From positions 1,116,001-1,180,000 of the forward strand of contig JACTVC010000004.1 of the NCBI GenBank assembly GCA_018417955.1: a stretch of DNA of 64,000 nt. The letters run 5' to 3'. The position numbers were made by a program, and so were the translations under genes. Below are positions 4,407 to 50,900 of the stretch, piece by piece (position 1 is the stretch's first letter; every line of letters starts with the position of its first letter). This DNA is from Laccaria trichodermophora. Its lineage: Eukaryota; Basidiomycota; Agaricomycetes; Agaricales; Hydnangiaceae. The notes beneath the pieces are model-generated. The model saw only the letters and a program-made list of their open reading frames with translations. It did not search any database and was not told where the DNA came from.

Positions 4407-6055
4407 TGATCCATGAGCATGGGCAGCCCGCAGGTGTAATGGAACAAGTGCTGGTCCACGGATGTAAATACAGATTTGCTGGTCCATGGGTGTAACAGAC
4501 CAACAGCTGGTCTGTGAATGTAAAGGCACAATGGTTGGTCCATTTTGCAGGCCAGCTGCAAACGCGGCCCACGGGTGGGGGTCTGATGGAAGAGGGCCTA
4601 TTGTTCAAGGACCAGCAGGTGGTTCTTGGGTGTCCGCAGATGTAACGGAGCAGTAGGTAATCCGTCAGTCCGCGGATAAATGAATTGCTGGTCCGCGGGG
4701 GTAACAGAACAAGAGCAGGTCCGCAGATGAGAGCGCAGCCTGCGGGTGTAATGGAACAAGAGCTCGTCCGTGGATGTAACGGCACAATTGCTGGTCCACG
4801 GGTGTAACGGAATAACGGTCTGTGAATGTAAAGGCACAATTGTTGGTCCATTTTGCAGGCCAGCTGCAAATGTGGCCCACGGGTGGGGGGCTGATGGAAG
4901 AGGGCCTATTGTTCAAAGACCAGCAGGTGGTCCGTGAATGTCCGCAGATGTAACGGAGTGGTAGGTAATCTGTTGGTCCGCGGATAAATGAATTGCTGGT
5001 CCGCGGGGGTAACAGAACAAGAGCAGGTCCGCAGATGAGAGCGCAGCCTGCGGGTGTAATGGAACAAGAGCTCGTCCGTGGATGTAACGGCACAATTGCT
5101 GGTCCACGGGTGTAACGGAATAACGGTCTGTGAATGTAAAGGCACAATTGTTGGTCCATTTTGCAGGCCAGCTGCAAATGTGGCCCACGGGTGGGGGGCT
5201 GATGGAAGAGGGCCTATTGTTCAAAGACCAGCAGGTGGTCCGTGAATGTCCGCAGATGTAACGGAGTGGTAGGTAATCTGTTGGTCCGCGGATAAAAGAA
5301 TTGTTGGTCCGCGGGGGTAACAGAACAAGAGCAGGTCCGCGGATGAGAGCGCAGCCCGCGGGTGTAATGGAACAAGAACTGGTCCACAGATGTAAATACA
5401 GAATTGCTGGTCCACAGGTGTAACGGAATAACGGTCTGTGAATGTAAAGGCACAATTGTTCGTCCATTTCGCAAGCCAGCTGCAAACGTGGCCCACAGGC
5501 GGGGGGCTGATGGAAGAGGGCCAATTGGTCAAGGAGCAGCAGGTGGTCCGTGGGTGGCCACAGGTGTAATGGAGCAGCAGGTAATCCGTGGGTGTAATCG
5601 GAGACCCGCGGGGGAGCCACAAATGGTCCGTGGCTGTCATTGGAAACCCGCGGGCCAAACGGAAGAAGGTTCCGCGGGTCTAAGAGAACAAGAGCTGGAC
5701 ATCGTGGGTGTAACGGAATAAGATCCCGCGGGTGTCATGGACCTATTGTCGACCCGTGGGGTAATGGAACACAATCTGGCCCGTGTAGCGACCCACGGGG
5801 CTAACAGAACAAGTGCTGCCCCGTGGGGGTAATGAGCAACAGCCAGCCCGAGGGTGTAATGGATCAATTGTCGATCCGCGGGGGTAACGGAACATGATCT
5901 GGCCTGCGTGGCGACCCGCGGGGGTAACAGAACAAGAGCTACCCCGTGGGGGTAACTGCAGAACAGCCAACCTGCGGGTCTAATTGCACAATTGTGCGGC
6001 CATGGGTCCAACAGAACAGGAGCGGACCTGCGGGTTTACCAGACCAAAGCCCACA
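4407..6055. repeat. Higher-order satellite of GTCCGCGGGTGTAA-type units
   Basis: The region is built from 25-33 nt units resembling GGTCCGCGGGTGTAACGG followed by AACAAGAGCT. In 4550-5470 these are organised into a longer period of about 308 bp. The marker TTGCAGGCCAGCTGCAAA recurs near 4547, 4855 and 5161, and a variant occurs near 5467. Outside that block the short units continue as a looser array to about 6055. Minus-strand reading frames across it are long only because the unit lacks stops. I see no gene. Confidence 0.85.
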
Positions 6056-21177: not shown

Positions 21178-22965
21178 ATGACCTGCATAGAACCAGGTGG
21201 GTATAGGCACTCCCTGGGTCACAGGGAAAACTGCATTAGTCCAGGAAATAAGGCCTATGCCTACAGCCATGGGTGGCAGGGAATCAAAGACATCGGAATC
21301 AATGGCACTCGCCTCCTTGCTGAAAGGCTCAACAATCCTCGGAGTTCCATAGCAGCCGTGAAAGTCAATATAGATGGTATGTGCCCACACTAATCTACAA
21401 TGTCTTATATAAACTTACACCAACTTACAGCCTTAGAACAAGGACAGATCCCAATACTTGTCGAAGAGCCCACCACGTCTGGCGCCAGGCGATTTTTCAA
21501 TGGCGGCCGTTGCGACACTGCTGGTCCCAAACTGTCGAAGTCTGAGGCCAACAGCACCACTGGTAGCAACTTTTCCGACGCTCCATCAGACAGCGATGAT
21601 AGGCCGCTTAAGTTGCAGAAGAGTACTGCACAGACATCGAGCAAGGAGAATGAGGCCAGTAGCATTATCGATGACGAGGACGAGGACGATGATGATGAAC
21701 CAATCAAGAGGAAGGGTAAAGGGACAAAGAAGGCAACCAAGAGAAAGACCAGCAGCGATGACAATGAGCCAGTCAAGAAGAAGGGCAAGGGGACGAAGAA
21801 GGCAACCAAGGGAAAGACCGTCAAGAAAGGCAGGGCTAAGCGGGAGGAAACGCATGTAGTGCAGGAGCCAGTGGAAGCAAGCAAGAAGGATGTAAAGCCG
21901 GAACCCGTCGCCAGTCAAAAGCCCGCACCTCGTCCCTTCAAGAAGCCTTTAGCTGATCCGGTCGCTGCTGAAGACAATATCCTGGCTGCTGGAGGACGTG
22001 GACTCTCGAAAGCTGTATCCCCTGGCCCAATTGACACCGTCACTCGCAATACCAGTGCGCCCACTCTCGACACCACCACTTGCAAGGCAGCTACCACTGT
22101 GCCCACTCTCACCACAGTCCCTGACGGGAGTACTTCAGTGGCAAATGTCGTCGCACCTCGCAGAAACGCACAACGGGGGTTAACACCTCTCCCAGTGCCT
22201 TCGCGTGAAATGCCTGCAGATCTTCCAGTACCTTCACATGGAATGCCTGCAGATCTTCCAGTGCCTTCATGTGGCACGCCCACAGATCTTCCAGTGCCTT
22301 CGCGTACGCGTGGCCCACTGCCTCCAGACACTACTGGTCGTCTTTACGCTGAAACACCCGCAGATCTTCCAGTGCCTTTGCGTGGCCCAATGCCGCTGCC
22401 AGAGACAAGGCGCTCAGACACTCAACTACCCTCAAATGCCTCCGCCTCTCATCGCACTCAGACACCCACCATAGACCAGCCTCACTCTCCACCAAAGTGC
22501 TCAGCTGAAGAAGAGGTGGACAGTGCGCACAAGCGTTTACGCAACAATACAGGTGCTGCAACTGTCTGTCCTACTCGAGAAAACACACCACTCCATCCAC
22601 CTGAGGAACTCGATGGACCCGGTCACTATCCGCCCTCTGCGTGGGATGGGCCATATGGGTACAATTATGGACCACCTTGGCGCTTCGGTGGCTCGTACTA
22701 CCATCCAAGCTATGCCCCACCTCCTAACTGGGGTCGGCCTCCTGGATACCCCAATTACCCAGAGCATATGTCGTACGCTGAACACCCACCCCCCCGTCAA
22801 GATGCTGATGATGGGTACAGCCCATACCCCATGAATGCCTACCATCAGGGCAGACCACCGCACTTCTTCCCACCTCAGCACTACCCTACCGATCCTCGTC
22901 AAGGCCGCACGCCATCTGAACACTCCTTGAAGCATGGCCATCACAAAGACAACCAAGATGCCTGA
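21178..22965 (+). CDS. Disordered Lys- and Pro-rich protein with ADLPVPS repeats
   Basis: Exon 1 (21178-21376) and exon 2 (21431-22965) join in phase 1 at VKVNID-ALEQGQIP, giving about 577 residues. The first 100 residues look globular (GTRLLAERLNNPRSSIAAV, then ARRFFNGGRCD). The rest is low complexity. It has an acidic run (DDEDEDDDDE), two copies of a Lys-rich KGKGTKKATK motif near residues 160 and 185, four to five copies of a PADLPVPS unit near 22195-22380, and a Tyr/Pro/Gly-rich C-terminus with many YxYP-like motifs. It has no domain I recognise. The basic repeats suggest nucleic-acid binding, by inference only. The codon usage is GC-rich like its KDZ neighbours and the frame is intact, ending in TGA. 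Confidence 0.6.
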
Positions 22966-24933: not shown

Positions 24934-26745
24934 ATGGAACCTTCTTCATCAACCGCCCTCCTGCAAAATGCTATCAGAACCACCATATCTGGAAGTGCAC
25001 ATGTCATTAACGCCGGCCACGACGTCGTTCTTCATGGCTCTCTGGCCCCTCCTGCCGCAGGTATGTTGGGTTTTATATGAATTTTCCAATATTATCAAAT
25101 GGTTCATGGCATCTAGGTCTTCCGGGCTTGCTTAGGCCCATCAGTAACGCTACCCATACTCGCATGGGTCGTGTTGCTCGATGTGATCCCAGAACCCGAC
25201 TAGAGATCATCGCTCAGATCAAGGAGTGGCTTAACAGCTCTGACGAGCGCACTCCTATCTGCTGGCTGAGCGGACCAGCTGGCTATGGCAAGTCAGTGGT
25301 GGCTCAAACTATCGCTGAGTGCTATGCATCAAAGGGTCGTCTTCTAGGGTGCTTCTTCTTTCTTCGGGGGGCTGGTGAACAGAGTCACATATCTCGTTTG
25401 ATTCCTACTCTTGCACATCAGATGTCCCTTTCTGTTCCTGCTGTTAAGCCTTTGCTTGAGAAGGCTCTTCGAGATGAGCCAGCCATTCTTGGGTTGTCTG
25501 TCTCTTTGGCTTACCAATTTCAGAAGCTAATCATAGAACCAATCCATTCCACCACTTCCAAAGTCCTCTCTAGTTTCAAAGTCTTCTCTCATTTTGCAAA
25601 GCAAAAGATCTTTGTTATTGATGCTCTTGATGAATGCAATGATAAGGCTGAAATGGCAGCCTTTATTGATCTTTTGCTCAATGCACTTCCAGGAGGGAAC
25701 TATCTTCCTTTCTGAATACTCCTTACCAGCAGGGTGGAGGAGCACATTCGGAAAAAATTTGATCATTCTGGGGCTCAACTTTTGTACCATCTGGACTTGG
25801 CCAATTATAATGCTTGTTTGGATATCCAAGTTTATTTTGAAAAACAGTTTAACTGCATCTATGACCAGAATTTGCAAGTGATGCAGAGTATACCAAAGCC
25901 CTGGCCATCTGCCAAAGATCTTGCTGTACTCCTGAACAAGGCTGGCAGTTCATTTGCATTTGCCACTACATTGATTCAATTTGTTGGAGGATATCCCATG
26001 CCTCACAAAGCCTTGCCAAAACTGCTGGAATCTGGAGTCAATGGTCTGGATCCACTTTATGAACAAGTTCTCTCTGCTGCATCTGGGACAGCAGAGTTTC
26101 ATAAAATTCTTGGAACAATTATCATTCTAGATGACAACAAATCTATCACTTTCCTTGGCTCTCTCCTCCATCTTCAGAATGAAGATATTGTTTGTGAGCT
26201 TTTAGGAGTACAGTCCATTATCAAGATTCCTGGAAATGATGATGAGCCTATTATGCTGTGTCACACCTCTCTCCAGGATTTTCTCACCATCAAATCACAA
26301 TCAGAGCAATATTACATTGATCCTCCTCTGCAACATCTTCATCTGGCCATACACTGCCTAAAACATTTGGGAGAATACCCCTTGAAAGGCTTTTTTGATG
26401 GTGATGTGGCCAAGTATGCTTTCTATAATTGGCCACAGCATATTCTGTTAGGATCTCAGAAGCAGCAATCAAATGTGGATGAAACAAACATGACTTCCTT
26501 GGTAACTCTCATAAAAAATTTACTGACTTTTCAGGGTAAGACATGGTGTAATACCATGCTGACTTTTGGAGTTCATGAGAGAACAAGGATGTTACAGTGC
26601 ATGAATGATACAAAGGATTTGTTCAAAGTTAGTAATTACAATTTCAAGATGGTCATCACATTCTAACATGCATAAAACATCACAGGGGTCAATTGTTACA
26701 AGAAATTTGACAGAGCTACTTCAGCAAGTTATCAATTTTTATAAA
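24934..26745 (+). pseudogene. NACHT-domain (NLR-like) protein with one in-frame TGA
   Basis: This is a fungal NLR-type signalling protein. It starts MEPSSSTALLQNAIRTTISG; intron 25061-25116 and then a long exon to 26627 follow. After intron 26628-26685 (CTAAC branch site) a 60 nt exon ends in QQVINFYK at 26745. The NACHT core shows a Walker A motif GPAGYGKS (about residue 94) and a Walker B motif FVIDALDEC (about residue 206). A helical region follows (LLTSRVEEHIRKKF, LLNKAGSSFAFATTLIQFVGG, CHTSLQDFLTI). The frame is broken once, by TGA at 25713-25715, exactly where LPxRILLTSR is expected. That gives a likely CGA to TGA change. It is followed at once by the micro-exon array, and no WD40, TPR or ankyrin repeats are seen. 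It may be a pseudogene, or a gene whose tail is encoded by the array. Confidence 0.75.
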
Positions 26746-28717
26746 GTAAGAGTTTATAATTGTGATATATTCACTGATTCATCAAGATCTTCCAACAGAC
26801 AGTAAGTAGCAGGAGGATTATACTGCTCAAATATTAATCTGGAAGGTGAATAGGAGGTATGTGGTGATAAATAGTAACTAAAAGGTATCAAAATAAAATA
26901 TTGACCTGTTTTACAGGATGTAAGCCAAGACATAGTAACATTTTATTGCTGTTGATAAAGCACAGAAAGTAAGAACAAAACAATTACCCAGCAAAGCAGA
27001 GTTTTATTTTTGTTGTTGTTTTTTCTTGCAGAATGTATGTCTTCAAGTTGTTCAAGTTTTAATATATTCTAATAGTTCTCATTAGTTTGTGGGCAATTAT
27101 TTTGTATGATACATCACATCTTATCATCAGCTGTCTATTTCTTTCAGGAAGTAAGTGATAACTGTTGATCATGCTACTTATATAGCTAATGCTTGTTTAT
27201 AAATCCAGGCAGTGAGATGACATCTATTCACAATGCCTATGTATGCCTACAACATATTTTTTTAGTGGGTAAGTAATTATGATTTCTTTTGTTCTGACTT
27301 AATTCTGTGCTGAATCTACCATTTTTAGGTGGTAAGATGTTTCCCTATTGATTATTCCCTCTTCTAGTGACTCATTCTCTTGCATTCCTTTTCTCATGTA
27401 CTGTTCTGGTGATCATGATGTGCTTTGACATATTTCAAAAAGAATGCTCTCTTGCATTTTGTTTTGCACACTTCTCAAACACATAATTTGACCATGTTTT
27501 TATTAGGTGGTGAGTTAGCATCTCTTTCACAATGCATCTTCTGGTGACACAGATTGTGGCCTGTCTTGTTTCAGGAGGTGAGTTGGCCTGGTTTTAATAT
27601 CCACACTTCTGGTGACACTGTGGCCTGTCTTCCAGAATGTGAGTTGGCCTGGTTTTCAATGTGCACTCTTCTGGTGACACTGTGGCCTGTCTTGTTTCAG
27701 GAGGTGAGTTGGTCTGGTTTTTAATGTCCACTCTTCTGGTGACACTGTGGCCCGTCTTTCTTCCAGAATGTGAGTTGGCCTAGTTTTCAATGTGCACTCT
27801 TCTGGTGACACTATGGCCTGTCTTGTTTCAGGAGGTGAGTTGGCCTGGTTTTTAATGTCCACTCTTCTGGTGACAATGTGGCCCACTTTGTTTCAGGATG
27901 TGAGTTAGCATGGGCTTTAATGTGCACTTTTATAGTGACAAAGATTGTGGCCTGTTTTGCTCCAGTTTGTGAGTTGGCCTAGTTTTCCATGTGCACTCTT
28001 CTGGTAACAGAGACTGTGGCCTGTCTTTCTTTAAGTTTGTGAGTTGGCCTGGTTTTTAATGTGCACTCTTGTAATAACACATATTTTGGTGCTTCTTTCT
28101 CAGGGGTAAGCTGCTTTGCTTTTCATCATGAATCACTTTTGTCACACATATCCGTCTTCATGTTTTTAGTATGTAAGTTATTTGTCCTTTCCTGTATATT
28201 TTTTGAGCAACCCATCTTTGACATTTCCTTTTTAGCATGTGAGTTGCTTATATTCTTATCCTAATCTATTCTATCACTTGCTTCTTGCACTCATTCTTTT
28301 CATTCATAGAAAGTATCTCTGCTCTTCTCCATATCTTGTGAGTGTTATTTGGTAGCTTTTATTTTTCAATCTATATGTTTTCAAACATTCATTTTTATCA
28401 GATGATTGATCTCCCATCAATATCTTCCAGAATGTTAGTTGAATTTCAGCACTCTGTGGAACAATTTTATAACATCTTTGTATTCCCTTTCTTCAGCAAG
28501 TAGGTTATTCATTTATTCTCATTTCCATCACTCTGATCTGTGCTTTTTTTAAAACTCAGATTGTATGTTTTTATTTCCTGTTACACAACAATGCTGATGT
28601 TTTGTAGCTTGTATGTGTTTGATCCATTGCCAGATTCCAGCACTTTCCCCTTCCAACCATTCTTTTTTTAGGAAGTACACATTTCTTAACATTATTAAAC
28701 TGGGTCACTTATTTCAG
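26746..28717 (+). other. Array of intron-like units separated by 3-nt candidate micro-exons
   Basis: Immediately after the NACHT exon the pattern pyrimidine tract-AG, three bases, GT[A/G]AG[T] recurs about every 60 bases. The three-base sites begin at 26799, 26917, 26966, 27032, 27148, 27209, 27266, 27329, 27507, 27575, 27636, 27701, 27767, 27832, 27897, 27966, 28036, 28170, 28236, 28310, 28431, 28497, 28560, 28608 and 28672. One site (28104) has two bases. The intervening units are 43-175 nt, mostly 54-67, the usual size of introns in these fungi, and many contain CTGAT-, CTAAT- or TGAC-type branch sites. The triplets read aca gat aaa aat gaa gca tgg gtg gtg gag aat gag aat gag gat ttt ttt tat cat aaa aat caa att ctt gaa, without a stop. 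Whether they are spliced cannot be told from DNA. Confidence 0.6.
27510..28045. repeat. Tandem repeat of about 62-66 bp inside the array
   Basis: Eight or nine copies of a unit resembling GTGAGTTGGCCTGGTTTTTA with CACTCTTCTGGTGACACTG are arranged head to tail. Alternate units end in TTTCAGGAG and CCAGAAT, so the copies are partly organised as dimers of about 125 bp. Each unit begins with a 5' splice-site consensus and ends with a 3' splice-site consensus. Confidence 0.8.
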
Positions 28718-28736
28718 ATATATAGTGGGCAAGTCA

Positions 28737-29240
28737 TGTTACGGGTGTTAAGCGTAATGGGCAGTTATTAAGCTTCGAGTTTGTTCGTCGGTTCGTTCGT
28801 TTGTGCTACGTTCCCTTAATTCTACGAGATGACGTAGTCTTTCACTATCACTTTGTTATGCCCTTAATAACAACAGTATAGGGTTCTACAATGCTCTATG
28901 CCTGAAGGACTGTTGTATAGAGATTCGGTGTCTGTTCTAAGTTGTTCACTGATGACATTCTAGTTCTTAAGTCTTTGATGTTGAAGACTTATCAGTTCAA
29001 GGTTTCAATAGAGGCTCTAAGTCAAAGACTATAGAGTTTGAGGGTGATCTAAGTTCTGAGGGTCTGACTGAGGGTTGAACTAAGCTTGTATTGCCTAGGT
29101 TCAAGCTACTGAATACAACTGAAAGTACTCTACTTATATAATAAGGGTATGAGTCAAGTGTGAGTCAGAAGTATGAGTTCGTATGACTTGTGTAGAGTCA
29201 TATGAATCATACTATGTCTATGTAAATCTTATATGAATCA
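28737..29240 (-). repeat. 3' LTR of gypsy copy 1
   Basis: This 504 bp LTR matches the one at 37195-37688 in its outer parts. A 175 bp internal segment (29037-29211) is inverted relative to that LTR. In this copy the TATA-like TATATAAGTAG box lies on the minus strand, the sense strand of the element. Confidence 0.85.
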
Positions 29241-30055
29241 TATGACTCTGAAAGAGTCATATGAAGGTCGTCAAGGTCAGCAAGAGGGGAAGGAGGGGGT
29301 GTAGAAGGTGGGGAAGGAGTAGTGGAATCTACTTCGCCTTCTTCTCTTATGGTTCCCCACTCTGTAAAGGGAATGATCAGCACTCCTTGCCAATTGTAAA
29401 CTCGTTCCTTCCACTTAAGCTCCCCTGTCTTTTTGTCGTATCCTGCAGGGTCCATTGCTCCATTCCTCGCCTTTTCTTCTTCCCACACCTTATCGGCTGC
29501 CTTCTTGGTTTCGCAATTGGGGGTGGTATGTCCTGGTCCCCACCAAAAGCATCCTTGACACTGATACTCCTTACAATCTTTGTGAATGTGTCCCACTTTG
29601 TTGCACTTAGAGCAGTGGCGACGACAAGGGTCAGAGACTCGTTCGTAAGGGCGGATGTTATGAATGGGGATGCCGTATTCCTGAAAGGTGGCATCGAATT
29701 CTTGGACAAAGTTAACAATCCCTTGTCCTGCGAAATACTGATCTATGGAGGTGGGTAGTGTAGGAAGGTCTTTTGATGCTTCAAAAACGCTAAGTATGCC
29801 ATGTCGAATGGCGGTGGCAATGGTGAGGGCGACAATGTGATAAGATCTAAAGGTGGCTTTCGTGTAGCCCACCTTCTTGGTCATATGGTTCTCATTGGCA
29901 ACGGCTTCAATGATGAGGTAAACATCGAGAGTGAGAGTGGGATCATGGTGACAGTCTCTGATAAGGGTTGTAATATGTTTGTTGTCTTCGAAAGCCTTTT
30001 GAACGAAGAGAATGGTTTGAGAGAAGGCCTGAGATTTGAAGAGGGTGAAAGACAT
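29207..30055 (-). CDS. Third ORF of gypsy copy 1: double zinc-knuckle protein
   Basis: This ORF of about 283 residues begins at the ATG at 30053-30055 (MSFTLFKSQAFSQTILF). It has a helical N-terminal half and two metal-binding knuckles: CSKCNKVGHIHKDC (classical C-x2-C-x4-H-x4-C) and CQGCFWWGPGHTTPNC (with x6 between the second Cys and His). A charged KAADKVWEEEKARNG segment and an acidic, Pro/Ser-rich tail follow. Such knuckles bind single-stranded nucleic acid in Gag proteins. The frame is the same as pol, separated only by one TAA at 30134-30136, and continues open from there; readthrough would fuse the two. The stop lies inside the 3' LTR at the edge of the inverted segment. I know this only as an uncharacterised CCHC family in mushroom genomes. 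It has no internal stop, unlike gag and pol. Confidence 0.7.
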   Translation of the reverse strand: MSFTLFKSQAFSQTILFVQKAFEDNKHITTLIRDCHHDPTLTLDVYLIIEAVANENHMTKKVGYTKATFRSYHIVALTIATAIRHGILSVFEASKDLPTLPTSIDQYFAGQGIVNFVQEFDATFQEYGIPIHNIRPYERVSDPCRRHCSKCNKVGHIHKDCKEYQCQGCFWWGPGHTTPNCETKKAADKVWEEEKARNGAMDPAGYDKKTGELKWKERVYNWQGVLIIPFTEWGTIREEGEVDSTTPSPPSTPPPSPLADLDDLHMTLSESYDSYKIYIDIV

Positions 30056-30133
30056 TTCGAAAAGATGAGGAGAGTGATTGAGAAGAAAGCTAGTTGGCTT
30101 GGTTGTGAGTTTAGACAATTTGTCTGAGGAATT

Positions 30134-33100
30134 TTACTGCAATTTCTTCCTCTTCTTATACTCGAGAAGAATCTCAGGAGCATTCTTCAAATTGCTTTCT
30201 GGTTCCCACATCTCGTCAGAGTATCCTTTCCACTCTACTAGATACTGGTATCCTTTGCTTCATTTCCTGTGATCTCTGATCAATTCTATTTCAAACTCTT
30301 CTTCTCCATCGACAAGGTCAGGAGGTGGTTCAGGAAAGTTCTTTCTGTGAACATCGGTTTCTCAATATGGGGTAAGAAGTTTTCCATGGAAAACATCATG
30401 TATCTTCCATTGAGATGGGAGTTGAAGTTTGTACATTACTGGGCCCATGATTTCTAGAATTTTAAAGGGTCCTTCGCGTAATGCGTCACTCTTGGGGTAC
30501 TTGTGACCCTTATTGAGGTTCTTTCCATCTAACCATGCTAAGTCTCCTTTGCTGAATGGAGGAGAGTTCTTCTTAGATCGGTTAATCTGAGCTTGTCAAG
30601 CTAGTTCATGTGTGGCTCGAGCGTCGTCTCTTATTTTTAAGAGATCAGCTAGTCTCTTTTTGATGGTAGGAACGTTTGTCTTTAAGAAAGCTAATGGGAT
30701 GCTCATGGGTTCACATCCGAACATGAGGTAGAATGGGGTCTGTTTCATAACAGAATGAGGTCGTCCATTGTATGAGAATTCGGCGATAGAGAGATTTCTA
30801 TCCCAATCTTCTGGAATTCTCTTGCAGAATATCCTGAGGTACGTTTCGAGTTCTCTATTGACTCGTTCTGTTTCTCCATCTGTCTGTGGATGATATGCAG
30901 TACTGATTTGCTGTTTGATTCTGCAGAGTTTCATAAGACTTTGATAGGTCTTTGAAACGAAAAGTGGATCTCGATCAGATATGATATCGTCTGGTACTCC
31001 AAATCGTTTGAATGTGTGATCGAAATGAAGTTCTGCAGCTTGTAAGGCTGAGATTTCTTTATTGGTTGGGATGAAAATTACCCCCTTCGTAAGGCCATGG
31101 TCTACCATGACCATTATGTGGTCATGACCTCGTTTTGTCTTTGGTAATCCTGATATAAAATCTTGGGATATCATTTGGAAGGGTCGTGTTGCTGTGGATT
31201 TAATTGGCTGTGTCAGCGGTTGTGTTGGCTGCGTGTTTACTTTATTTTGTTGACAGGTGGCACAACCTGCAACATATTCATATATGAAGTGGCGTAACCT
31301 TGGCCACCAGTAATGTCTTTGCACCATTTCTAGGGTTGTGTCTCTTCCAGGGTGTCCGGTCATTATTGAATCATGAAATTCTTGAACGATCAATTTTTGT
31401 ATTCTGTTACTATCAGGAATATAGCATCGGTCCTGATAGAAAAGTTTTCCATCTTCTATTTTCCAATCAGAAAGACTGGATTTGATCAGTGGAATTCCTT
31501 TCATAGAAAGGAAATTTGATACGTTCTTTACTAGTGCATCTGACGTTGATGCTGATTCAATCATTTTTGCTAGTTCTGTGTTTATGAGATTGATGAATAA
31601 CTTGTCTGGTAATAAGACAAGATCTTCATTGTTGTTATCATTTTCTGGAATGTGGTCTGGATGTCTGGAAAGAGCGTCTGATTGGACCATTCTGGATCCA
31701 GGGACGTGAATAAGTTGAAGGTTAAACCTCGAAAGGTATAGACTCCATCTGGCTTGTCGATGGTTTAACTTCTGCGTCTTTCGGAAATATGTCAGATTCT
31801 TGTGATCTGAGAATATTGTGACGGGGTGTGGGCTTTCTTCTAGAAAGTGTCTCCACATTTCTAAGGCTCAGATGATGCCTAGAAGTTCTCTGTCATATAT
31901 GTCGTAATTCCTTTCTGTAGCAGTGAAGCTATGAGAGATATAGCCGCATGGCTTTAGATCTCCGTTATTGTCTCTTTGTTGGAGGACAGCTCCTGTAGCC
32001 CATTTGGATGCATCTGATTTGACATAGAATGGTTTTGTCAGATTGGGTATGATTAAAACAGGTTCCTCTAGGAATTTCTTCTTTAAATTTTCGAAGGCCG
32101 TTTGACATTCTTGTGACCATTCGAAAACTTTCATCTTCTTCGTAAGTTCATTCAGGGGTTTGGCAATCTCCACATAATTTCCAATGAATCTTCGGTAGAA
32201 GTTGCCGAATCCTAAGAATGACCTAACCTCTTTTACACTCTTTGGTGGAGGCCAATCTCGAATTCCTGCTAACTTTGTTGGGTTCATAGCGATTTCATTT
32301 GGGCGAATGATGAAACCTAGGTATTCCACTTCTGTTGTGTTAAAAACGCATTTCTCTGCTTTAAGGAACAAATCCTTTTCTTCTAATCGTTCTAGAACTT
32401 TCTCGGTTCGTCCATGATGATCTTTGGGATCTTTGGAGAATATGAGAATATTGTCAATATATATTAGGGACCACCCTTTGGCAATCATATTGGCAAAATA
32501 GTCATTCATCATGGCTTGGAATGTTGCAGGTGAGTTCGTCATTCCAAAGAACATTACTGTCAGTTCAAATAGTCCTCTTTTAGTGATGAAGGCACCTTTC
32601 CATTCATCACCTTCTTTGATTCAGACGTTATTATATCCCCATCGGATATCTAGTTTCGTAAAGATCTTAGCTCCTGAGAGCTTATTCAAGAGATCGTTGA
32701 TGGATGGAAGGGGATATGCGTTCTTGATCGTATAATCGTTCAGGTAGCGATAATCTTGGCAAGGCCTTAGTGCCTTACTATCTTTCTTTGCTATGAAAAA
32801 GAAGGGTGAAGCTTGAGGTGAATTTGATGGTCGAATGAAACCTTTCTTTAGGTTTTCATTAATGAACTTGTTCATTTCTTCTTCTTCTTTCTGTCCTAAT
32901 GGATATAGTTTTGATCTTTTTGGTACAAAGTCCAGTTTAAGATCAATTCGATGATCCCATGGTCTGGATTTAGGAAAGCATTCTGACACTTCTTTCTCAA
33001 ATACAGATCTAAACCTGTGGTATTCTTTCGGGACTAGTTCTTCAAACGTTTTCTCTGTCTTAGGTTCTTCTTTATGCGCAAGGCTTTGTGATATGAATGT

Positions 33101-33889
33101 CTTAGCCCTAATGGATATCTCCAGTTCGCCTCTTTGGAGATATGAGGTGATAAGATCGTCTTCTGGTTCTTCTTCATCTTCTTCCATATCAGGTACCAAT
33201 GCTGGCATATCTTCATATTCATCGGGAAGTTCATTAACTGTGATGAGGACAGCTTCTTCACTGTCTGACAACCTTTCAAACTTTGGGGTTGTTTCTTCGT
33301 CGGATATCTCTTCAATAGAGATCTGGGGTTTCTTCTTTAAGGTTTTTCATATCTGATCTGCAAAAACCTTTTGTGATTCCATCTTTTCTCGTTCTATCTC
33401 TATTGCTCGAAGTTGGAATTCTCCGAGTATGGCTTGTCGAATACTGGGTAATCTTATCTGATCAGAAATAATTCTGATGGACTTCTTCACCCAATCTATT
33501 TCTGGATTAATTCGATCTAGCCACGGTAATCCTAGGATTATATCTTCTTTTCCCAGGTTGGAGATTAAAAATTGGGTGGAAACGACTTTTCCATCAATTT
33601 TTGTTGGGAGTCGAGTGTAGAATTTAATTGGTCCATTCTTATTTGGACTTTCATCAATGTTTGAAACTTGGATTTCCGTATCCAGTTTCAAGAGCGGGAG
33701 TCGGTTCTCTTTCACAAATCTTTCATCCATAAAAGTTCCTTGAGTGTCACTGTCTATAAGTGCTTTTGTTTTGACAATTTTCTTTCCATTAAACAGCTTG
33801 GTGTCAACACATATTGACCTTGGGTCATCATTTGGTACACTTCTAATCTGAAGCGTTTTAATGGAAAGTTCTTTAGAAGATCTAGACAT
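30134..33889 (-). pseudogene. pol: pol of gypsy copy 1, with six in-frame TGA codons
   Basis: This is a single frame from MSRSSKELSIKTLQ to the stop TAA at 30134, starting 5 bases after the gag stop. The protease has ALIDSDTQGTFMD, where DSG is expected. The reverse transcriptase has [22 protein letters not shown] and a catalytic box YIDN instead of YIDD. RNase H has [18 protein letters not shown]. Integrase shows the HHCC finger (TGHPGRDT, CATCQQNK) and the Asp-Asp-Glu triad (SQDFISG, ISDRDPLF, GETERVN). The C-terminus carries a chromodomain (QYLVEWKGYSDEMWEPESNL), making it a chromovirus. The frame is interrupted at 33347, 32621, 31868, 30596, 30362 and 30260, always by TGA and never by a frameshift. 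The two altered catalytic boxes suggest an inactive copy. Confidence 0.9.
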
Positions 33890-33894
33890 TGTGA

Positions 33895-36740
33895 CTAGTC
33901 TTCAGACTGAAAATCCTCTGATTTACTGGACTTTTCTTCGTCAATTGCTTCTAAGAAAGCGACTTTCACTCCTTCTAATTCTTCTCCTTCTAAGTCAACC
34001 ATAATAGCGCAAACTCTCTGTGCGAGGTCTTAGTGATGCCCTACATATTCCTGCCGGATTCCAGTCATTCCGGCAGATTCCGGTGCCATTCCAGTGGAAT
34101 TTACCAGCCAAAATTCCACTCCAGCCACGGAATATTGATATTCCAGGATTTTCACCGGAACAGTCCCTGGAATGCACCGGAACGGAATGGCACTGGAATC
34201 CAGTGACCGGAATGAGCACTAAAAATTGCCAAATATGGCAAGTTCTATATTTTCAGATAAAAATTAACAATAAAATCAGAAAAAAAATAGGGATGGTGGT
34301 AATGATGTTGGGGTACTGTTTACATGGTCTGTGCGCATTTCCTAATATGGTAATTAATGCAAATATAACCAGAAAATCAGGGAAAAAAGACTGAAAAAAT
34401 ATAGGGATGGTGCTCACTATTGGTGATGTTGTTGGGGTATTGCTTACATGGTCTGTGCGCATTTCCAAATATGGTAATTTATGCAACTATAGCCAGAAAA
34501 TCAGGAAAAAGAATAAATATGATGTAGACTCTTGTTGACAATGTTGGAGTAGTGTTTACATGGTCTGTGCACATTTCCAAATATGGTAATTAATGCAAAT
34601 ATAGCCAGAAAATCAGGAAAAAAAGAGATGAATGAATAAACATGATGTAGACTGTTTTTGACAATGGTGAAGTAGTGTTCACATGGTCTGTGCATATTTC
34701 CAAATATGGTAATTAATGCAAATATAGCTAGAAGATCAGAAAAGAAGGGGAAAAGGTATACACATGGTGTTAACTGTTATTGACAATGTTGGAGTAATGT
34801 TTACATGGTCTGTGCACATTTCCAAATATGGTAATTAGTGCAAATATAACCAGAAAAACAGAAAAACAGCAGAGACATGATGTTAACCATTGTTGACGAT
34901 GTTGGGGTACTGTTTACATGGTCTGTGCACATTTCCAAATAGCTGTTGTCAGGTTCAGGGTAAATAAGGATATTTAAGTATTTCTAATAAAAGAATAGCA
35001 GAAAATTCAGAAAAAAAAGAGAGTTGGTATATGCAGTGTATACAATATGAGGCACTGCCTTCAGGGTCCATGTCAGGGTCATTTATATATATCCACAAAA
35101 GGAAATATGATCTTGTATGATGAAAAGTCAAGAAATTCAAGATTATGAGGATTCTGCTTGTCAGGGTTCATTCAATGGGATGTCAGGATGATGGTCACAT
35201 GACCAATTACCAAAAATGGTCCAAAAAACAAAAGTTGTAGCCCTGCACTGTAGCTTCCCAAATCTGGTTGAATTGTGTTCTGAAGTGCTCCCATTGTGGA
35301 GATATGAGGTAAAAGATTTTCAAAAGTGTCGCATTTTTTTTTTGTTTTTTGTATTTTTCTCCATGAAAACAACACCAAATAATATGATTTCAACACATTT
35401 ACAAAGCAAAGAGAAAGGGCTACAACTATTGTATCATGGGAAATTTGACCCAAAAAGGAAGGTGCATACCCTAAAAGGGATAATGACACTGATAGACTAC
35501 AAAAGTCAGTTTATATACACACAGAATCTGGTGGAATCCAGGCCCATTCCTGCAGGAATATGTAGGGCATCAAAAAGTACAGTCTCTGTGCTGCACTTTT
35601 TCCTTTGACTGGCGTCGTGGTTTTTCTGGAATTGGAAGCATTTCCTTTTCCAGAATTGAGGGTGGGATTTGTTGCGTGGTTGTGAGACACGTGTCCTGTT
35701 TTTCCACATTTGAAACATTTCCCTTCCTTCATGTACTGGTTTCGTTCTTCTAACGTTAATCTATCAATATCCATAGCATCTGGATCTTGGGCTTTCGGGG
35801 TGAATGAAGTTCATTGAACTGGACGGCTGGGTTGCCAGTTCATGATTCTTGATTTTGTCGTCTTCCTATAATAGGATTTCTCGAATTTTCTAGCGTCTTC
35901 CATAATACCCTTGAGGGTTTCTGAAGGTTCTTTCTGATCTTCGATTTTGTCTCGTAATCTGGGAGGGAGTCTGTCTAAGAACATCTCAGGAAGACAGGGA
36001 TTGTCTACTTCTGCTGTGATGTATCCTCCTCGACTAGCAAGTGATTCAAAGTCAATGATGTACTGTTCGAGTGCTCCTGGTTTCATTTTGAGCACTGCTA
36101 GATCTGTTCTAGCTTTGTCTTTGGTTCGTCTTAGATCAAAGTTCTGATCTAATATTTTAACGAATTGTGCCCAAGTTTTATCAGGTGCGAATTTCTTGAC
36201 GTTCTCTACTATCTTCATGTTCTCATCTCTGAAGTGTTCTGCCCATCGTGCAGCTCTTCCTGATGACATATAACCAAGTGTGAACTTGATTTTCTCTGTG
36301 TTGTTCTCAAATAAACTATTATAAGCATCGAGGTAATCTTTGAGAAGATTAAGCCACATCTTATATTTTTCTTCGGTTCCATCAAAATCTTTAGGGGTTC
36401 GGGCTTTCTCGCCTTTTGAAGTCTGTACTGTAGACATCTGTGATAGTGTCGGATTCTCGGGTTCTACTGGTTGTTCTGGTTCTATCAGCAAGTTGCTTTG
36501 TCTAGGAGCCTCAGATATGGTTGGTGACTCTGGATACAGGTTCAATGCCTGTGTGTTGAACTGTTCTGTTATCTGGGTTGTTTCATCGGTAGGTGTGATA
36601 CCTAGTCTGGTTAAGTCTATTGGTGAAAACGCTGGTTCTGTGATGACTGGTGCAAGTAATGGCTGCACACTACTGCTAGATGTTCTGGTGATCGAAGGTG
36701 ATCCTCTGGGTGTATTCCTTCTACTGTAAGGAGATAACAC
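33895..36740 (-). pseudogene. gag: gag of gypsy copy 1, split by a DNA element
   Basis: The first part (36740-35592) begins MLSPYSRRNTPRGSPS. It has a Pro/Ser-rich region, the helical capsid-like domain (EEKYKMWLNLLKDYLDAYNS, GRAARWAEHF, WAQFVKILDQNF, QYIIDFESLASRGG) and a C-terminal knuckle CFKCGKTGHVSHN whose last Cys appears lost. A TGA at 35811-35813 interrupts the frame. The element at 34024-35583 interrupts AAQR. After removing it and one 8-base duplication the frame continues exactly into MVDLEGEELEGVKV and stops at 33895-33897. Confidence 0.85.
34024..35583. mobile_element. hAT-like non-autonomous element with 8-bp target duplication, in gag
   Basis: The element of 1560 bp is flanked by CTCTGTGC (34016-34023 and 35584-35591), an 8 bp target-site duplication typical of hAT elements. 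The left end starts GAGGTCTTAGTGATGCCC. The right end, read inverted, starts ACTGTACTTTTTGATGCCC, and both continue CTACATATTCCTGC. Inside are about five degenerate copies of a 120 bp repeat around TTACATGGTCTGTGC and ATTTCCAAATATGGTAAT. A 300 bp stretch (35190-35480) is shared with the palindrome at 48-52.8 kb. No transposase is encoded. Confidence 0.8.
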
Positions 36741-37194
36741 TGGTCTTAATCCTGTGATTCGTCTATATCTTCCTGTAACTGATACAGGTGTCGATGTTCC
36801 TGATACTGGTGTCTGTGATGCAGGGGGACTGTTACCCTCTTCTGCACTTTTGTAGTGTTCTTCACCTGATGTGAAGGTGTCGGTTCTGGGTTCAGGTTCT
36901 GAGTCTGAGTTCTCTGGTACTCTGTATCTCCAACGACTTGACTCTCCTTGTGAAGCTGTGGTTTCTTCTTAGTTAGAAGGCGTGTCTGATTCACCTTCTT
37001 TGTTCAATAGTTCGATGATCTCTTTGATCCTTTCGTTAAACTCTCTAATGAGACGGATAACATCTTCAATTCGTTTATTATACTCTTCAGTAAGACATAT
37101 AATTCTCAGCGTGTTGTCCAGTTTGACTAATTTGGGTAGAGGGTGGGTGATGCGCCTTCTGATCTGGGATAAGCTTGAACCTTTTGTTACGGGT

Positions 37195-37688
37195 GTTAAG
37201 CATAATGGGCAGTTATTAAGCTTCGAGTTTGTTTGTCGGTTCGTTCGTTCATGCTACGTTCCCTTAATTCTATGAGACGACGTAGTCTTTCACTATCACT
37301 TTGTTATGCCCTTAATAACAACAGTATAGGGTTCTGCAATGCTCTATGCCTGAAGGACTGTTGTATAGAGATTCGGTGTCTGTTCTAAGTTGTTCGCTGA
37401 TGACGTTCTAGTTCTTAAGTCTTTGATGTTGAAGACTTATCAGTTCAAGGTTTCAATAGAGGCTCTAAGTCAAAGACTACAGAGTATGATTCATATGACT
37501 CTACACAAGTCATACAAACTCATACTTCTGACTTGCACTTGACTCATACCCTTAGTATATAAGTAGGGTACTTTCAGTTGTATTCGGTAGCTTGAACCTA
37601 GGCAATACAAGCTTAGTTCAACCCTCAGTCAGACCCTCAGAACTTAGATTGCCCTCGAACTATGTCTATGTAAATCTTATACGAATCA
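37195..37688 (-). repeat. 5' LTR of gypsy copy 1, with inverted core segment
   Basis: This LTR is about 494 bp. Its segment 37485-37659 is the reverse complement of 29037-29211 in the other LTR, with scattered substitutions. Its TATA-like sequence (AGTATATAAGTAGGG, near 37552) therefore points away from gag, toward the flanking DNA. Confidence 0.85.
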
Positions 37689-39534
37689 TAGTAAAGGAAT
37701 CTGACTGGGATGTGTATCTAGAACTGTCCGGTATAGTCTAGGTACATCTTAGGAATATGTAATTGTCTGTGCATGTTTGTACATATTGAAAAGAAAAGAG
37801 TTTGTAACAAGTCAACTCCATTTTATATCATCTTAGAATCTGTGGTGTCATAAAATTCTCCAATTTTTAGAGGGTACGCTTTGTTTCTTGCTGTCAATGC
37901 TCACTGAATATTCATCTTCAAAAGGTATAGAAAGATACAGAGCTATCCAAATTTTAATGATCCTCTTTCTTTGCAAAATGTCAAATTATGTATGTGTCAT
38001 TATCTGCTCTATTCCTTCTTGTTCATCTACATTCCCCTCAGTAGTTGTTACATCCTCTATATCCATCATTCCTCATGGTCTCTCTGATTGAGTTATGTAT
38101 ACACCAAGAAGAAACAAAATCTTTAATCATGCAGTTCAGTTTCTACCTCTTGAGGTGTAGATGAGTACTGATTGCTGAGAATAACACTTGACAGCATTGT
38201 GGACTCAAATTTCTTTTTCTTATTTGAATATTTCAGCTCTTGGATTTCACAACACTATTGTAATCCTGGGATTACATCAGGTTGTTGTTTGGTTGTTTGG
38301 CATCACCATCTACTCTATTTGAACTTCCCTACTCATGCAATGTTCTCCAGAAAGTTTTCTGGAGTTCAAACCTGAACCTGAATTAAACTGAACTTTGCAT
38401 TCAGTTGAGAGGTTCAGGTTCAAGCTAAAGTTCTGGACTTCAGCAACACTAGCTATGTGTTAGAGTTTGTCGACTCTGATGTTTGTGTATTTCTATGAGC
38501 ACAGATTGTTAGTTAGTTCAAATGAAATGAAGACTGATTAAGAATTGGATGTTGTTTGAGATATGTAAGTTGAATGAGTCATAGAGTTGAGTAAGTTCAG
38601 GATATTCCTAGATCACATGAGTTCCTCAAATACTAATAGCAATGAAGAACATAAATGTTAGCACTAAGTCTTTAACATATTTGTTCTTACAGGAAATCTC
38701 ATCCACAAGGATATGTATTCACGAATTGTGAATGTGAACATGAACAGGTGAACATTTGCTTAATTTGGATGCCACTTTCCCACACCCCGCTTGTTCAGTC
38801 AACATGACTGCTGCGTGCCCTGTTGATCTACCAGAATATCACAGTGATAAGACTACCTACACTCCACTGGCCAACATGACGACTCTACCCATGTTTACAA
38901 CATGTTTATAATCAGCTCACCATGTACTTAAAACAGAGGAATTTCATGGTTTTCTGCAATGGATGCACCTCATGAAGATCCATCAAGAGGTGGAAATTTT
39001 GATTATATAAAGGGAATAATCTACTACTAACTGTTGAATAGAATAATAAGGCCCTACCATGTAACAATAAGTTTTATTGAAGGGTGTCCATGCCATTGGT
39101 GATGAGGACATGACAAAGAAGTGCCTGGGAAGGATGGACACATGACCATGGGGTGTTCGCTGGTTCAGTGAACTGTTCGGCATTGGTTTGATGAATGTGT
39201 TCATGAACCTTGCTCCCAGTCAATGAGTTGTCCTCTGTTCTTAAGGTATTGATAGCATGAAGCTTTATGAAATATCTTATTGGTGAGTCCCACTTATGTC
39301 AAATGTTTTACTCACCTTTGGGCTGAAATATGAGAGGGGCAGGGACAGATTTCCCCAGATTTCTGAAACAAGACATACCATCAGACCCTGATGCTATTTT
39401 GAGCTTTGTTTGCCATCGCCCTCCAGGGTGGCGTCGGCCATTGGCCTTTTTCAGTTCCTTGTGACAATAAGAGATCAATCTGTCTATGTACTATAGATTG
39501 ATTGTCTACTTTAGATTAAGGAAGGACTCGTACT
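37689..39534. other. No recognisable gene
   Basis: AT-rich DNA between the gypsy element and the H2B remnant. One further AG-NNN-GT site (TTTAGAGGGTACGC near 37866-37880) occurs, but the series seen before the retrotransposon does not resume. No coding sequence is convincing. Confidence 0.5.
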
Positions 39535-47949: not shown

Positions 47950-50900
47950 CTGTTACCTGAAGCATTCAGAATGGGAAGTTGTCCAAAAAGCATCTTATAT
48001 CAGAATGGGTAGTTGCCTGCTGGACAGTTTACCAAGAGTCATGATGTGTTGTCAACGTAGGCTATAGAGGACGTGAGTGAGCTCAGTGGTTGTGCTCACT
48101 GTTAGTGACAACGTTGGGCACTGTTTTAAGGGTCCAGGGTGCATTTCCAAATAAGGAAATATCCGCATTTCCAAATGAAAAATAGCAATAAAATAGGGAA
48201 AAAATCAGAAAAAAATGGGGGATGGTGCTCACTGTTAGTGACGACGTCGGGGGCTGTTTTCAGGGTCCAGGGCAGATTGCCAAATATGGTAATATAGCCA
48301 AGAATAGCCAGAAAATAGCCAAAAAATCAGAAAAAAATGGGGGATGGTGCTCACTGTTAGTGATGATGTCAGGCACTGTTTTCAGGGTCCATGGCACATT
48401 GCCAAATATGGGAATATATCCAAAAATAGCCAGAAAATAGCCAAAAAAACAGAAAAAAATCGCAGGTGGTGCTCACTGTTAGTGATGACATTGGGGTTGT
48501 TTTCAGGGTCCAGGGTGCATTGCCAAATATGGTAATATATTAAAAAATAGCCAAAAAATCAGGAAAAAATGGCAGGGTGGTGCTCACTGTTGGTGATGAC
48601 ATTGGGGTTGTTTTCAGGGTCCAGGGTGCATTTCCAAATATGGTAATATATCCAAAAATAGCTAGAAAATAGCAGAAAAATTGGAAAAACATATGAATGG
48701 TGTACAGAACATCAGGCACTGCCTTCAGGGTCCACTTCAGGGTCTATCCCAAAATGGAAATATGACCTGGTGTGACTAAAAGTGAAGAAAAGCAAGATGA
48801 GAATGATTTTACCTATCAGGGTCCATGTAATGGGATGTTGGGATGTTAGTCACATGACCAATTACCAAAAATGGTCAAAAAACGAAAGTTGTAGCCCTAC
48901 ACTGTAGCTTTCTGAATCTGTTTGAATTATGTTCTGAAGTGCTCCTGTTGTAGAGATATGAGGTAAAGGAATTTCAAAAGCATCGTGTTTTTTTTTTGTT
49001 TTTTGTGTTTTTCTCCATGAAAACAAAACCAAATAACATGATTTCAGTATATTTAGAAAGCTAAAAGAAAGGGCTACAATTATTGTATCGCGGGAAAAAT
49101 GACCAAAAAAGGAAGGTGCATGCCCTACAGATATAGACTACCAAGTTTACTGATAGACTACAAAAAAGTTGGACTTAGACTACATAGTTTACTGATACAC
49201 TATAAAAGACTACAAAGTTTACTGACACATACAAAAGACTACAAAAGTTTATAGACTACCAAATTTACTGATTGACTAAAAAAGTGAGACCCAGACTACA
49301 AAAGCTTGGACTTAGACTACAAAGTTTGTAGTGTCTGCTTTTTTATTAGAAAGTCTGTATTGTCTGCTTTTTGAGACTACAAAAGTTTGTAGTGTGCGCT
49401 TTGTCATTAGAAAAGTTTGTCGTGTGTGCTTTTTCATTAGAAAAGTTTGTAGTATCCACTTTTTGAGACTACAAAAGTTTGTAGTGTGTGCTTTTTCATC
49501 AGAAAAGTTTGTAGTATCCACTGTTTGAGACTACAAAAGTTTGTAGTGTGCGCTTTTTCATTAGAAAAGTTTGTAGTATCTGCTTTTTGTCATTACAAAA
49601 ATTTGTAGTGTGTGCTATTTCATTCAGTGTTGAACTTAAGGCTTAGGGGTTAATAAGGTTTAAGGCTTAAATTCATTCTAAGGCTAAGGGTTAGCATCAG
49701 TCAGAGTTTTCAATAGGTCTTAGTTAAGCCTTAGAAATGTGTGCCAAGAAAATATGACTATTATGTCACAGTGGAATGAATCAGATGGACAAATTGCAAA
49801 TTTACTCCACTTCCAAGTTCCAACCCTTCTTGCCCTGTACAAAGTTGGAAACACTTTATCCCCAGCACCAAGCAAATTGGGTCCCCTATCCATGCATACT
49901 TTTCTTTTCATGGCCAAAAAAAATCTGATATTGATGAACAGGCTGCAGGTGAGGCCATACCATTTTATCACTGGTACCCAGGAGAACCAGGTCTGTCATG
50001 GACTTATGGCTGAAAATAAACTGATAAGTATTGATGGACTGTCCACAGATGATACAAATTAGAGGTGGCAGTCATACATGGAGGTGGAGGAAGCCCAATT
50101 GATGAGTTTTTGGCAGATGAGAGAATATGTGCCAAATGATAGGAAAAATAGAGGGCTTAGGTGATGACTTCAAAGGACTGACAGGATAATCTATATTTAG
50201 GCAGAGCCTTAATAACCCCTTAGAATCAAGTCTTAATTAAGGCCTGTAACTAAGGCCTAAGCCTTAGCCAAAATTCTGGGGGTTAATAACCCCTTAGAAT
50301 CCAACACTGATTTCATTAGAAAAGTTTGTATTGTCTGCTAATTGAAACAACAAAAGGTTGTAGTGTCCGCTTTTTGAGACTACAAAAGTTTGTAGTGTCC
50401 GCTTTTTCATTTAAAAAAGTAGGTAATTGACATGTAGTTTATGGTGTCCTTGGACCTATCTATGTTATGGGGATGAGGTTGAAGGATTGCCATCATATTG
50501 CCAGTGCTGCAGCATTAGTTTTTGACATCATGCACAAGTTGTCTTGCACATCAGGAAAGGCCATCCTAAGCCTTTCATATTGATACTGCTGTCCTATCTG
50601 AAAAGATAATTGGAAGCTCATGTGGGGATATGCTGAAGGATTGACATGACTTTAAATATTGCTATTGCCACATCAGCAGTTTCTCACATCATGCCCAAGT
50701 TGGCTTTCAGCTAGAGGTGGCTATTCATGTTGATATCTACTCAATACATGGTCAACTTACAACATGACCTGACTTGAAGACACCTCCAAGGATGGATCAG
50801 CCCATCATCAAAAGCCAAGTTGGTCATGATGTCAAAAACTGGTGATGTTATGTCAATCCTTCAGTGATACCCCCACATGAATGTATCAAAGTTGACTATG

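Follow-up and report, generated by a model that had tools for sequence, protein, structure and literature searches.

Is the tail of a NACHT protein encoded here one codon at a time? In the window (the whole 64-kb stretch of contig C34 analysed here, from a genome searched as 59 Mb in 77 contigs), introns are chained from position 26746 onward, with three bases between successive introns. The original prediction had described 25 three-base units and one two-base unit (28104) in this region, and had proposed either one codon per exon or zero-yield ratchet points. The plus-strand array and the two-base unit stand, and the count is now higher; a relaxed chain model recovers 28 AG-NNN-GT/GC units between 26799 and 28728, the last with a GC donor, plus the one 2-nt unit. 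This series is interrupted by the 2-nt unit at 28104 and by a decayed unit near 27439. We conclude, with a probability of roughly 0.9, that the gene belongs to a NACHT (STAND / NLR-like) family in which the C-terminal tail is encoded one codon per exon, separated by phase 0 introns. Four observations carry the case for one-codon exons: a spacing of 3 nt, the retention of this spacing in paralogues, stops that are missing from phase 0 only, and a database protein, P0121, that matches most of the spliced form predicted for one paralogue. The features of the locus are as follows.

24934–25060, plus strand: NACHT gene, probable first coding exon, with its ATG at 24934 and ending in phase 1; placed by eye.
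25117–26627, plus strand: main NACHT exon (NPHP3_N / NACHT), phase 0 at its end, with an in-frame TGA at 25713–25715.
26686–26745, plus strand: exon 2 (20 codons), in phase 0 on either side and followed by the donor GTAAGAG at 26746; boundaries set by eye.
26799–27331, plus strand: 5′ block of 10 single-codon exons (chain model and coordinates): ACA 26799, GAG 26854, GAT 26917, AAA 26966, AAT 27032, TTT 27086, GAA 27148, GCA 27209, TGG 27266, GTG 27329.
27437–27443, plus strand: decayed unit, AG-AAA-GT in paralogues (by-eye comparison with loci L021 and L026).
27507–28038, plus strand: variable middle array of 9 single-codon exons (chain model): GTG 27507, GAG 27575, AAT 27636, GAG 27701, AAT 27767, GAG 27832, GAT 27897, TTT 27966, TTT 28036.
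27533–28070: tandem repeat of the middle array.
28104–28105, plus strand: 2-nt unit GG, a 3-nt unit in paralogues; splicing it in would break the frame.
28170–28728, plus strand: 3′ block of 9 single-codon exons (chain model and coordinates): TAT 28170, CAT 28236, AAA 28310, AAT 28431, CAA 28497, ATT 28560, CTT 28608, GAA 28672, TGG 28726 (GC donor).
28737–37809, minus strand: LTR retrotransposon with TG...CA ends and a 5-bp target duplication (AGTCA), in the intron behind the TGG exon.
37871–37873, plus strand: last single-codon exon, AGG, beyond the retrotransposon.
37931–37957, plus strand: phase-0 candidate for the terminal exon, encoding K D T E L S K F and then a stop.

The product of the first coding exon has an N-terminus similar to those of the Laccaria amethystina proteins P0039 and P0055. 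The open reading frame of the main NACHT exon stops at 25715, and a Pfam scan limited to the part before this TGA (25077–25712) returns PF24883 (E 8e-23) and PF05729 (E 3e-8). A paralogue with 91% identity to this exon, L002, has no stop in the matched part. The unit near 27439 has lost both splice sites in the window, while they are intact in paralogues. The ends of the retrotransposon share 305 bases at 96%, and its pol pieces (RVT_1, RNase H and integrase) lie on the minus strand in separate reading frames. Past the retrotransposon the gene continues at 37810; the 3′ end of the paralogue L026 matches the window at 37808–38205 by blastn, and an alignment read by eye shows a short phase-0 peptide like the candidate terminal exon in several paralogues. 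Because of the in-frame stop, the 2-nt unit, the decayed unit and the retrotransposon in an intron, the window copy is probably a non-functional pseudogene. That this copy is damaged, and that paralogues free of the damage exist, had not been recognised in the original prediction.

Elsewhere, the window holds several other structures. Arrays of ~111–123-bp units that appear related by eye lie at 34305–34941, 48092–48689 and 52227–52692; those at 48 and 52 kb are inverted relative to each other, and between them an inverted pair (49312–49624 and 51251–51624) resembles the terminal repeats of one element. Two arrays of a ~56-bp unit rich in TTTCATT (57259–58645 and 58839–59415) face each other in opposite orientation, forming a large potential hairpin. 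A 521-codon open frame rich in proline and basic repeats spans 21400–22965 and has no Pfam match at E 0.001.

The spacing of the splice-site motifs in the array fits an exon length of 3 and no other. The motif AG-NNN-GTRAG occurs at 18 sites between 26797 and 28243, the number originally given. Across both strands of the window there are 36 such sites, compared with 12.7 in shuffled sequence, and none of 100–200 shuffles reached 36. Between 26.7 and 28.75 kb, YAG is followed by GTRWG 21 times at a lag of 3, and each of the other lags from 0 to 20 yields one such pair or none; on the reverse strand there are none at lag 3. The rest of the window has no lag-3 peak (on the plus strand, 4 at lag 3 compared with 4 to 14 at other lags up to 12). 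The chain model applied to the window yields 17 units at an exon length of 3 and one unit at every other length from 0 to 12 except 7, where it yields 9; we take the length-7 chain for an echo of the second GT inside GTGAGT. In 19 arrays together (47.6 kb), YAG-to-GTRNG pairs number 628 at lag 3 and 12 at lag 0; apart from lag 3, no lag from 0 to 30 exceeds 30 pairs, and the reverse strand has 5 at lag 3.

Could a repeat unit that happens to contain AG-NNN-GT have simply multiplied the motif as a by-product of tandem amplification? The middle array is indeed a homogenised repeat, and the genome contains 318 matches to one 71-base piece of this array. The recent tandem repeat is confined to this middle part, as had been proposed. 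However, the array at L072, which has no tandem repeat, and that at L038, where the one short repeat lies outside the array, have the same exon length; together they give 36 pairs at lag 3, whereas no other lag from 0 to 20 gives more than 2. Their chains contain 24 units (L038) and 19 units (L072) at exon length 3, compared with at most 6 at other lengths (0–12 for L038). Moreover, in the constant blocks the introns at a given unit position differ in length by as much as 17 nt between arrays, setting aside the 175-nt value at the site of the decayed unit in the window, while the exon stays at 3 nt. The lag tests, the chain tests and the arrays without tandem repeats rule out chance or a repeat artefact, and leave the by-product explanation scarcely credible.

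The NACHT domain of the window has at least 127 matches in the genome. We fetched 20 paralogous stretches, comprising the 19 best besides the window and one short match, and a full array follows the NACHT domain in 17 of them. Loss of the AG-NNN-GT spacing at homologous loci had been named in advance as a refuting observation; in these 17 of 20 the spacing is kept. Of the others, L030 has three units left, and L032 and L040 have none; the open frames of the latter two are short (248 and 149 codons), and both copies are perhaps broken. The test was extended to two more divergent NACHT genes, of which L072 (35% identity) carries an array and L073 (38% identity) has none within the 2.5 kb fetched. 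The array at L023 has at least 87 units and reaches the end of the stretch fetched. A stretch of 18 nt at L072, seen by eye, is a candidate longer exon, its length again divisible by three. Contig C76 holds nine of the 17 paralogues with arrays (L026, L027, L029, L031 and L033–L037). At L026, the reading frame of the flanking exons stays open through intron 1. Exon 2, with the sequence around it, recurs at this locus as an inverted copy (80%) at ~5292–5489 of the sense sequence (stored as the minus strand), ~350 bases behind the last unit of the array, where it could pair with the sense transcript.

Alignment of the arrays reveals constant blocks at both ends. All 15 arrays compared over the 5′ block, including that of the window, have GAG as unit 2 and TGG as unit 9 (15 of the 19 arrays were counted; L027, L036, L038 and L072 were excluded). 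Overall, conservation of the 5′-block codons does not exceed that of the intron cores (difference 0.234 versus 0.207), and invariance is limited to certain positions. In the 3′ block, ATT, CTT and TGG are invariant in 13 of 13 paralogous arrays (13 of the 19; the window, L021, L023, L036, L038 and L072 were excluded). The TGG of this block has a GC donor (GCAAG) in all 13 arrays aligned and also in L038; this non-canonical donor is conserved. By blastn (E 0.01), neither the L038 nor the L072 array has similarity to the 17 family arrays. The residues encoded by L038 nonetheless match the first ten and the last six of 12 family arrays, with none of 20,000 shuffles as good. For L072, the first eight codons match the main family weakly (1024 of 20,000 shuffles as good) and match L038 better (7 of 20,000).

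Are the triplets translated? Among 714 phase-0 triplets from the 19 arrays there are no stops, whereas 51.7 are expected from independent column frequencies; the joined triplets contain 25 and 106 stops of 695 in phases +1 and +2. Avoidance of stops through rival splice sites is disfavoured, because comparable sense codons occur: CAG is found 11 times and TAG never, TAT 12 times and TAA never, TGG 61 times and TGA never. The variable array taken alone (unit 12 onward, donor GTGAG, 17 loci) likewise has no stops in 313 triplets, compared with 22.2 expected. C occupies the third position in a single triplet of the 714, so that the exons do not consist of any three bases, as had been supposed; this scarcity fits a demand of the donor site on the last exon base. 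In 15 NACHT exons the corresponding figure is 21%, and on account of this difference we reject a recent insertion of introns into an old continuous exon. Cysteine codons are absent from the 714 triplets.

Side-by-side acceptor and donor consensus is also what recursive splicing would display, with ratchet points that aid the removal of one long intron and triplets that never enter the mRNA. In insect and vertebrate ratchet points, the donor is regenerated close behind the acceptor and no exon is left; nothing stands between AG and GT. The arrays share the proximity of donor and acceptor, but here one codon is left each time. The chain model with an exon length of 0 gives no chain in any of the seven stretches tested, and untranslated triplets should hold stops, of which none was found. 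Together with the retention of triplets in P0121, described below, this makes zero-yield splicing very improbable, and the ratchet points of the original prediction are rejected. One codon per exon, the other option that it had offered, draws support from the stop-free phase 0, from the codon-by-codon similarity of L038 and from P0121.

To obtain P0121, we predicted the L038 tail from its chain of 30 units and searched it against 5.8 billion proteins. A single scoring match was returned among 25 candidates (E 8.8e-30). This protein has 584 residues, comes from a contig of 2256 bases, carries the source label 'lgn', which we take to be an SRA-wide assembly, and has three members. It is 96% identical to L038 over 542 residues. 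Its C-terminus reads ...VLEITK-KEMQNWNNWIGPITPSWHNGIP-WASHCYT, which is exon 2 followed by single-codon residues; of the 30 residues predicted for L038, the first 22 are present there without interruption. If the contig is a transcript, ratchet points are refuted for the L038 type. The last eight predicted units are absent in their predicted form and only W recurs; after GIP, the protein passes to W-A-S and about six predicted residues are left out. W-A-S is what TGG and an unspliced GCAAGT donor would encode, and the TGG with the GC donor is where the splicing of P0121 seems to end. This end perhaps reflects skipping with a retained intron, or a different gene copy. A contiguous copy of the P0121 tail was searched for in this genome and none was found, the sole match being exon 2 at L038. 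We interpret P0121 as a near relative's transcript or a copy of such a transcript; known from one source, it could be a retrocopy in a relative.

PF24883 and PF05729 score above cut-off in the window exon, in L022 and in P0121. At E 0.001, Pfam detects no WD, ANK or TPR repeats in P0121 or the L022 exon, and both therefore appear free of ankyrin domains and WD40 repeats by this search. No solved structure matches P0121 at E 0.001. A spliced tail of the L026 type, searched against the protein database, gave 4 candidates, none at E 1 or better. The best named match of L022 is the L. amethystina protein P0007 (82% identity), in which exon 2 runs into T in phase 0 as if joined to ACA, and then continues as if into the intron; on the strength of this match, the genome is probably that of a Laccaria.

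The same DNA could in principle be read straight through, with the 69-bp units translated as 23-residue repeats and the variable bases falling in two codons, as in the repeat domains of other fungal NLRs. At L026, one frame is open for 444 codons across the array, and 69 and 63 are both divisible by three. One open frame in three is, however, not unexpected in a homogenised repeat, and the unit lengths of other arrays are not multiples of three (61–70 in the window, 58–70 at L029). The 5′ block of L026 itself has no open frame beyond ~60 codons, and changes of intron length in this block are not in steps of three. Since P0121 has, in addition, the spliced form of the L038 tail, we consider straight translation exceedingly improbable.

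The middle array, with a unit of mostly 63 to 69 bp, behaves differently at its codons and at its introns. We compared variability per 3-mer in the 11 of 19 arrays that have at least four units regularly spaced on both sides; the other 8 have too few. In all 11, no 3-mer of the unit varies more than NNN (there is one tie, in L036); the mean pairwise difference at NNN is 0.50–0.78, compared with 0.02–0.16 elsewhere in the unit. The separation is steep at L026 (0.678 versus 0.021) and L033 (0.669 versus 0.018). Among pairs of units with identical 66-nt flanks, the codon is the same in 4 of 45 at L026 and 15 of 67 at L033, and differs at all three bases in 21 of 45 and 28 of 67, respectively. Seven paralogues on C76 have 5′ blocks that are 92–98% identical and arrays that are unlike in length and codons. 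The middle array thus turns over fast, with change focused on the codon.

Units that share a codon have more similar flanks in L022 (p 0.0225), L023 (p 0.0005), and L024 and L034 (0 of 2000 permutations for each). At L026 (p 0.27) and L033 (p 0.58) the same permutation test finds no such association, and whole-unit shuffling is rejected as the sole source of codon variety; it is at most part of the story. Codon-focused change could arise through strong diversifying selection, and a local mutational process may lie behind it. It is also conceivable, though unlikely, that the exons are real and the codon differences in the middle array are neutral or driven by mutation, with no function in recognition. 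Differences at all three bases between units with identical flanks are large for a change that proceeds step by step, and perhaps reflect mutation by a local process. The absence of stops from the 313 variable units, on the other hand, argues for selection against nonsense, and in one known case of fungal NLR repeats the hypervariable codons are described as under diversifying selection (PMC4986451). The combination of intron differences of 2–16% with codon differences of 50–78% suggests a fast-diversifying recognition tail.

For a tail encoded one codon per exon, the following route can be proposed from the genomic sequence. In live genes, the spliceosome would remove the introns (mostly 45–75 nt) one after another, each AG-NNN-GT serving as an acceptor and then as the next donor and adding one residue. 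The predicted plan comprises a constant 5′ block of ~10 exons, a variable part of ~5 to >70 and a constant 3′ block of ~6–9, so that the tail would begin with a constant part (TENENFxKW...), pass through the variable one and finish with another constant part (...ILKWR). With one codon per exon, units could be gained, lost, swapped or skipped with no shift of frame. The middle array would be homogenised by exchange between units while the codons diversify. The tail probably serves as a fast-evolving recognition surface, by analogy with HNWD proteins and their hypervariable WD repeats. A more speculative extension, which we put forward tentatively and hold to be less probable than not, treats the near-identical introns as a recombining scaffold and the codon as its payload. 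The genome, with its 318 matches to one unit, would then keep a library for shuffling single residues; splicing, possibly with variable skipping, would yield the tails; a local process would change codons faster than ordinary mutation; and the system would have either a separate origin from the truffle genes discussed below or a deep history shared with them.

Several known systems bear comparison. The micro-exon genes of Schistosoma mansoni contain runs of short exons in multiples of three that can be skipped with no frame shift; their exon lengths are varied, their proteins are secreted and a NACHT domain is absent. They share short, frame-neutral exons with the arrays described here, but differ in their varied lengths and in lacking NACHT. 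A closer parallel is found in NACHT-ankyrin genes of Tuber melanosporum, for which passages in three papers report alternative splicing of dozens of 3-bp or codon-sized exons (PMC9815663, PMC4986451, PMC3689799); a passage in a fourth places the same exons in the domains of sensor NLRs (PMC10197012). All four cite Iotti et al. 2012 (Fungal Biol 116:261). According to these passages, then, the original view that no gene with such a series had been described does not hold. As far as the citing passages go, the truffle nank genes are likewise a large NACHT family, belong to an ectomycorrhizal fungus and carry their 3-bp exons, dozens in number, where the C-terminal recognition region is encoded. 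They differ in belonging to an Ascomycete and in having ankyrin repeats, whereas the present genes are from a basidiomycete and P0121 has no ankyrin or other repeat domain by Pfam. Set against the truffle genes as known from those passages, the middle array here combines homogenised introns with hypervariable codons.

Among the matches listed from the open-licence literature, no such exons are reported in Laccaria or another mushroom, and the literature passages and listings consulted describe no hypervariable single-codon exons between near-identical introns. The kind of gene is therefore known from truffle; here it occurs in another phylum, with no ankyrin in P0121 and with homogenised introns that alternate with hypervariable codons. 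A second parallel is offered by the HNWD / NWD family of Podospora anserina (het-d, het-e and het-r), NACHT STAND proteins in which arrays are described as having high internal identity, length change, unit exchange and a few hypervariable codons, and these codons in internally conserved WD repeats set recognition (PMC4986451, PMC2873952). The same pattern of high internal identity with variation concentrated on particular codons is present in our arrays. In HNWD proteins, however, the repeat is a translated WD40 unit, whereas here the constant part is an intron and only the variable codon is translated.

These arrays extend codon-sized exons from one truffle family to a mushroom, in another phylum. 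They open the question of how a spliceosome handles at least 87 successive 3-nt exons, as at L023, and of what selection or targeted change acts on one codon in an otherwise uniform 69-bp unit. Where such arrays exist, the annotated tails of fungal NLRs may be wrong, as P0007 exemplifies.
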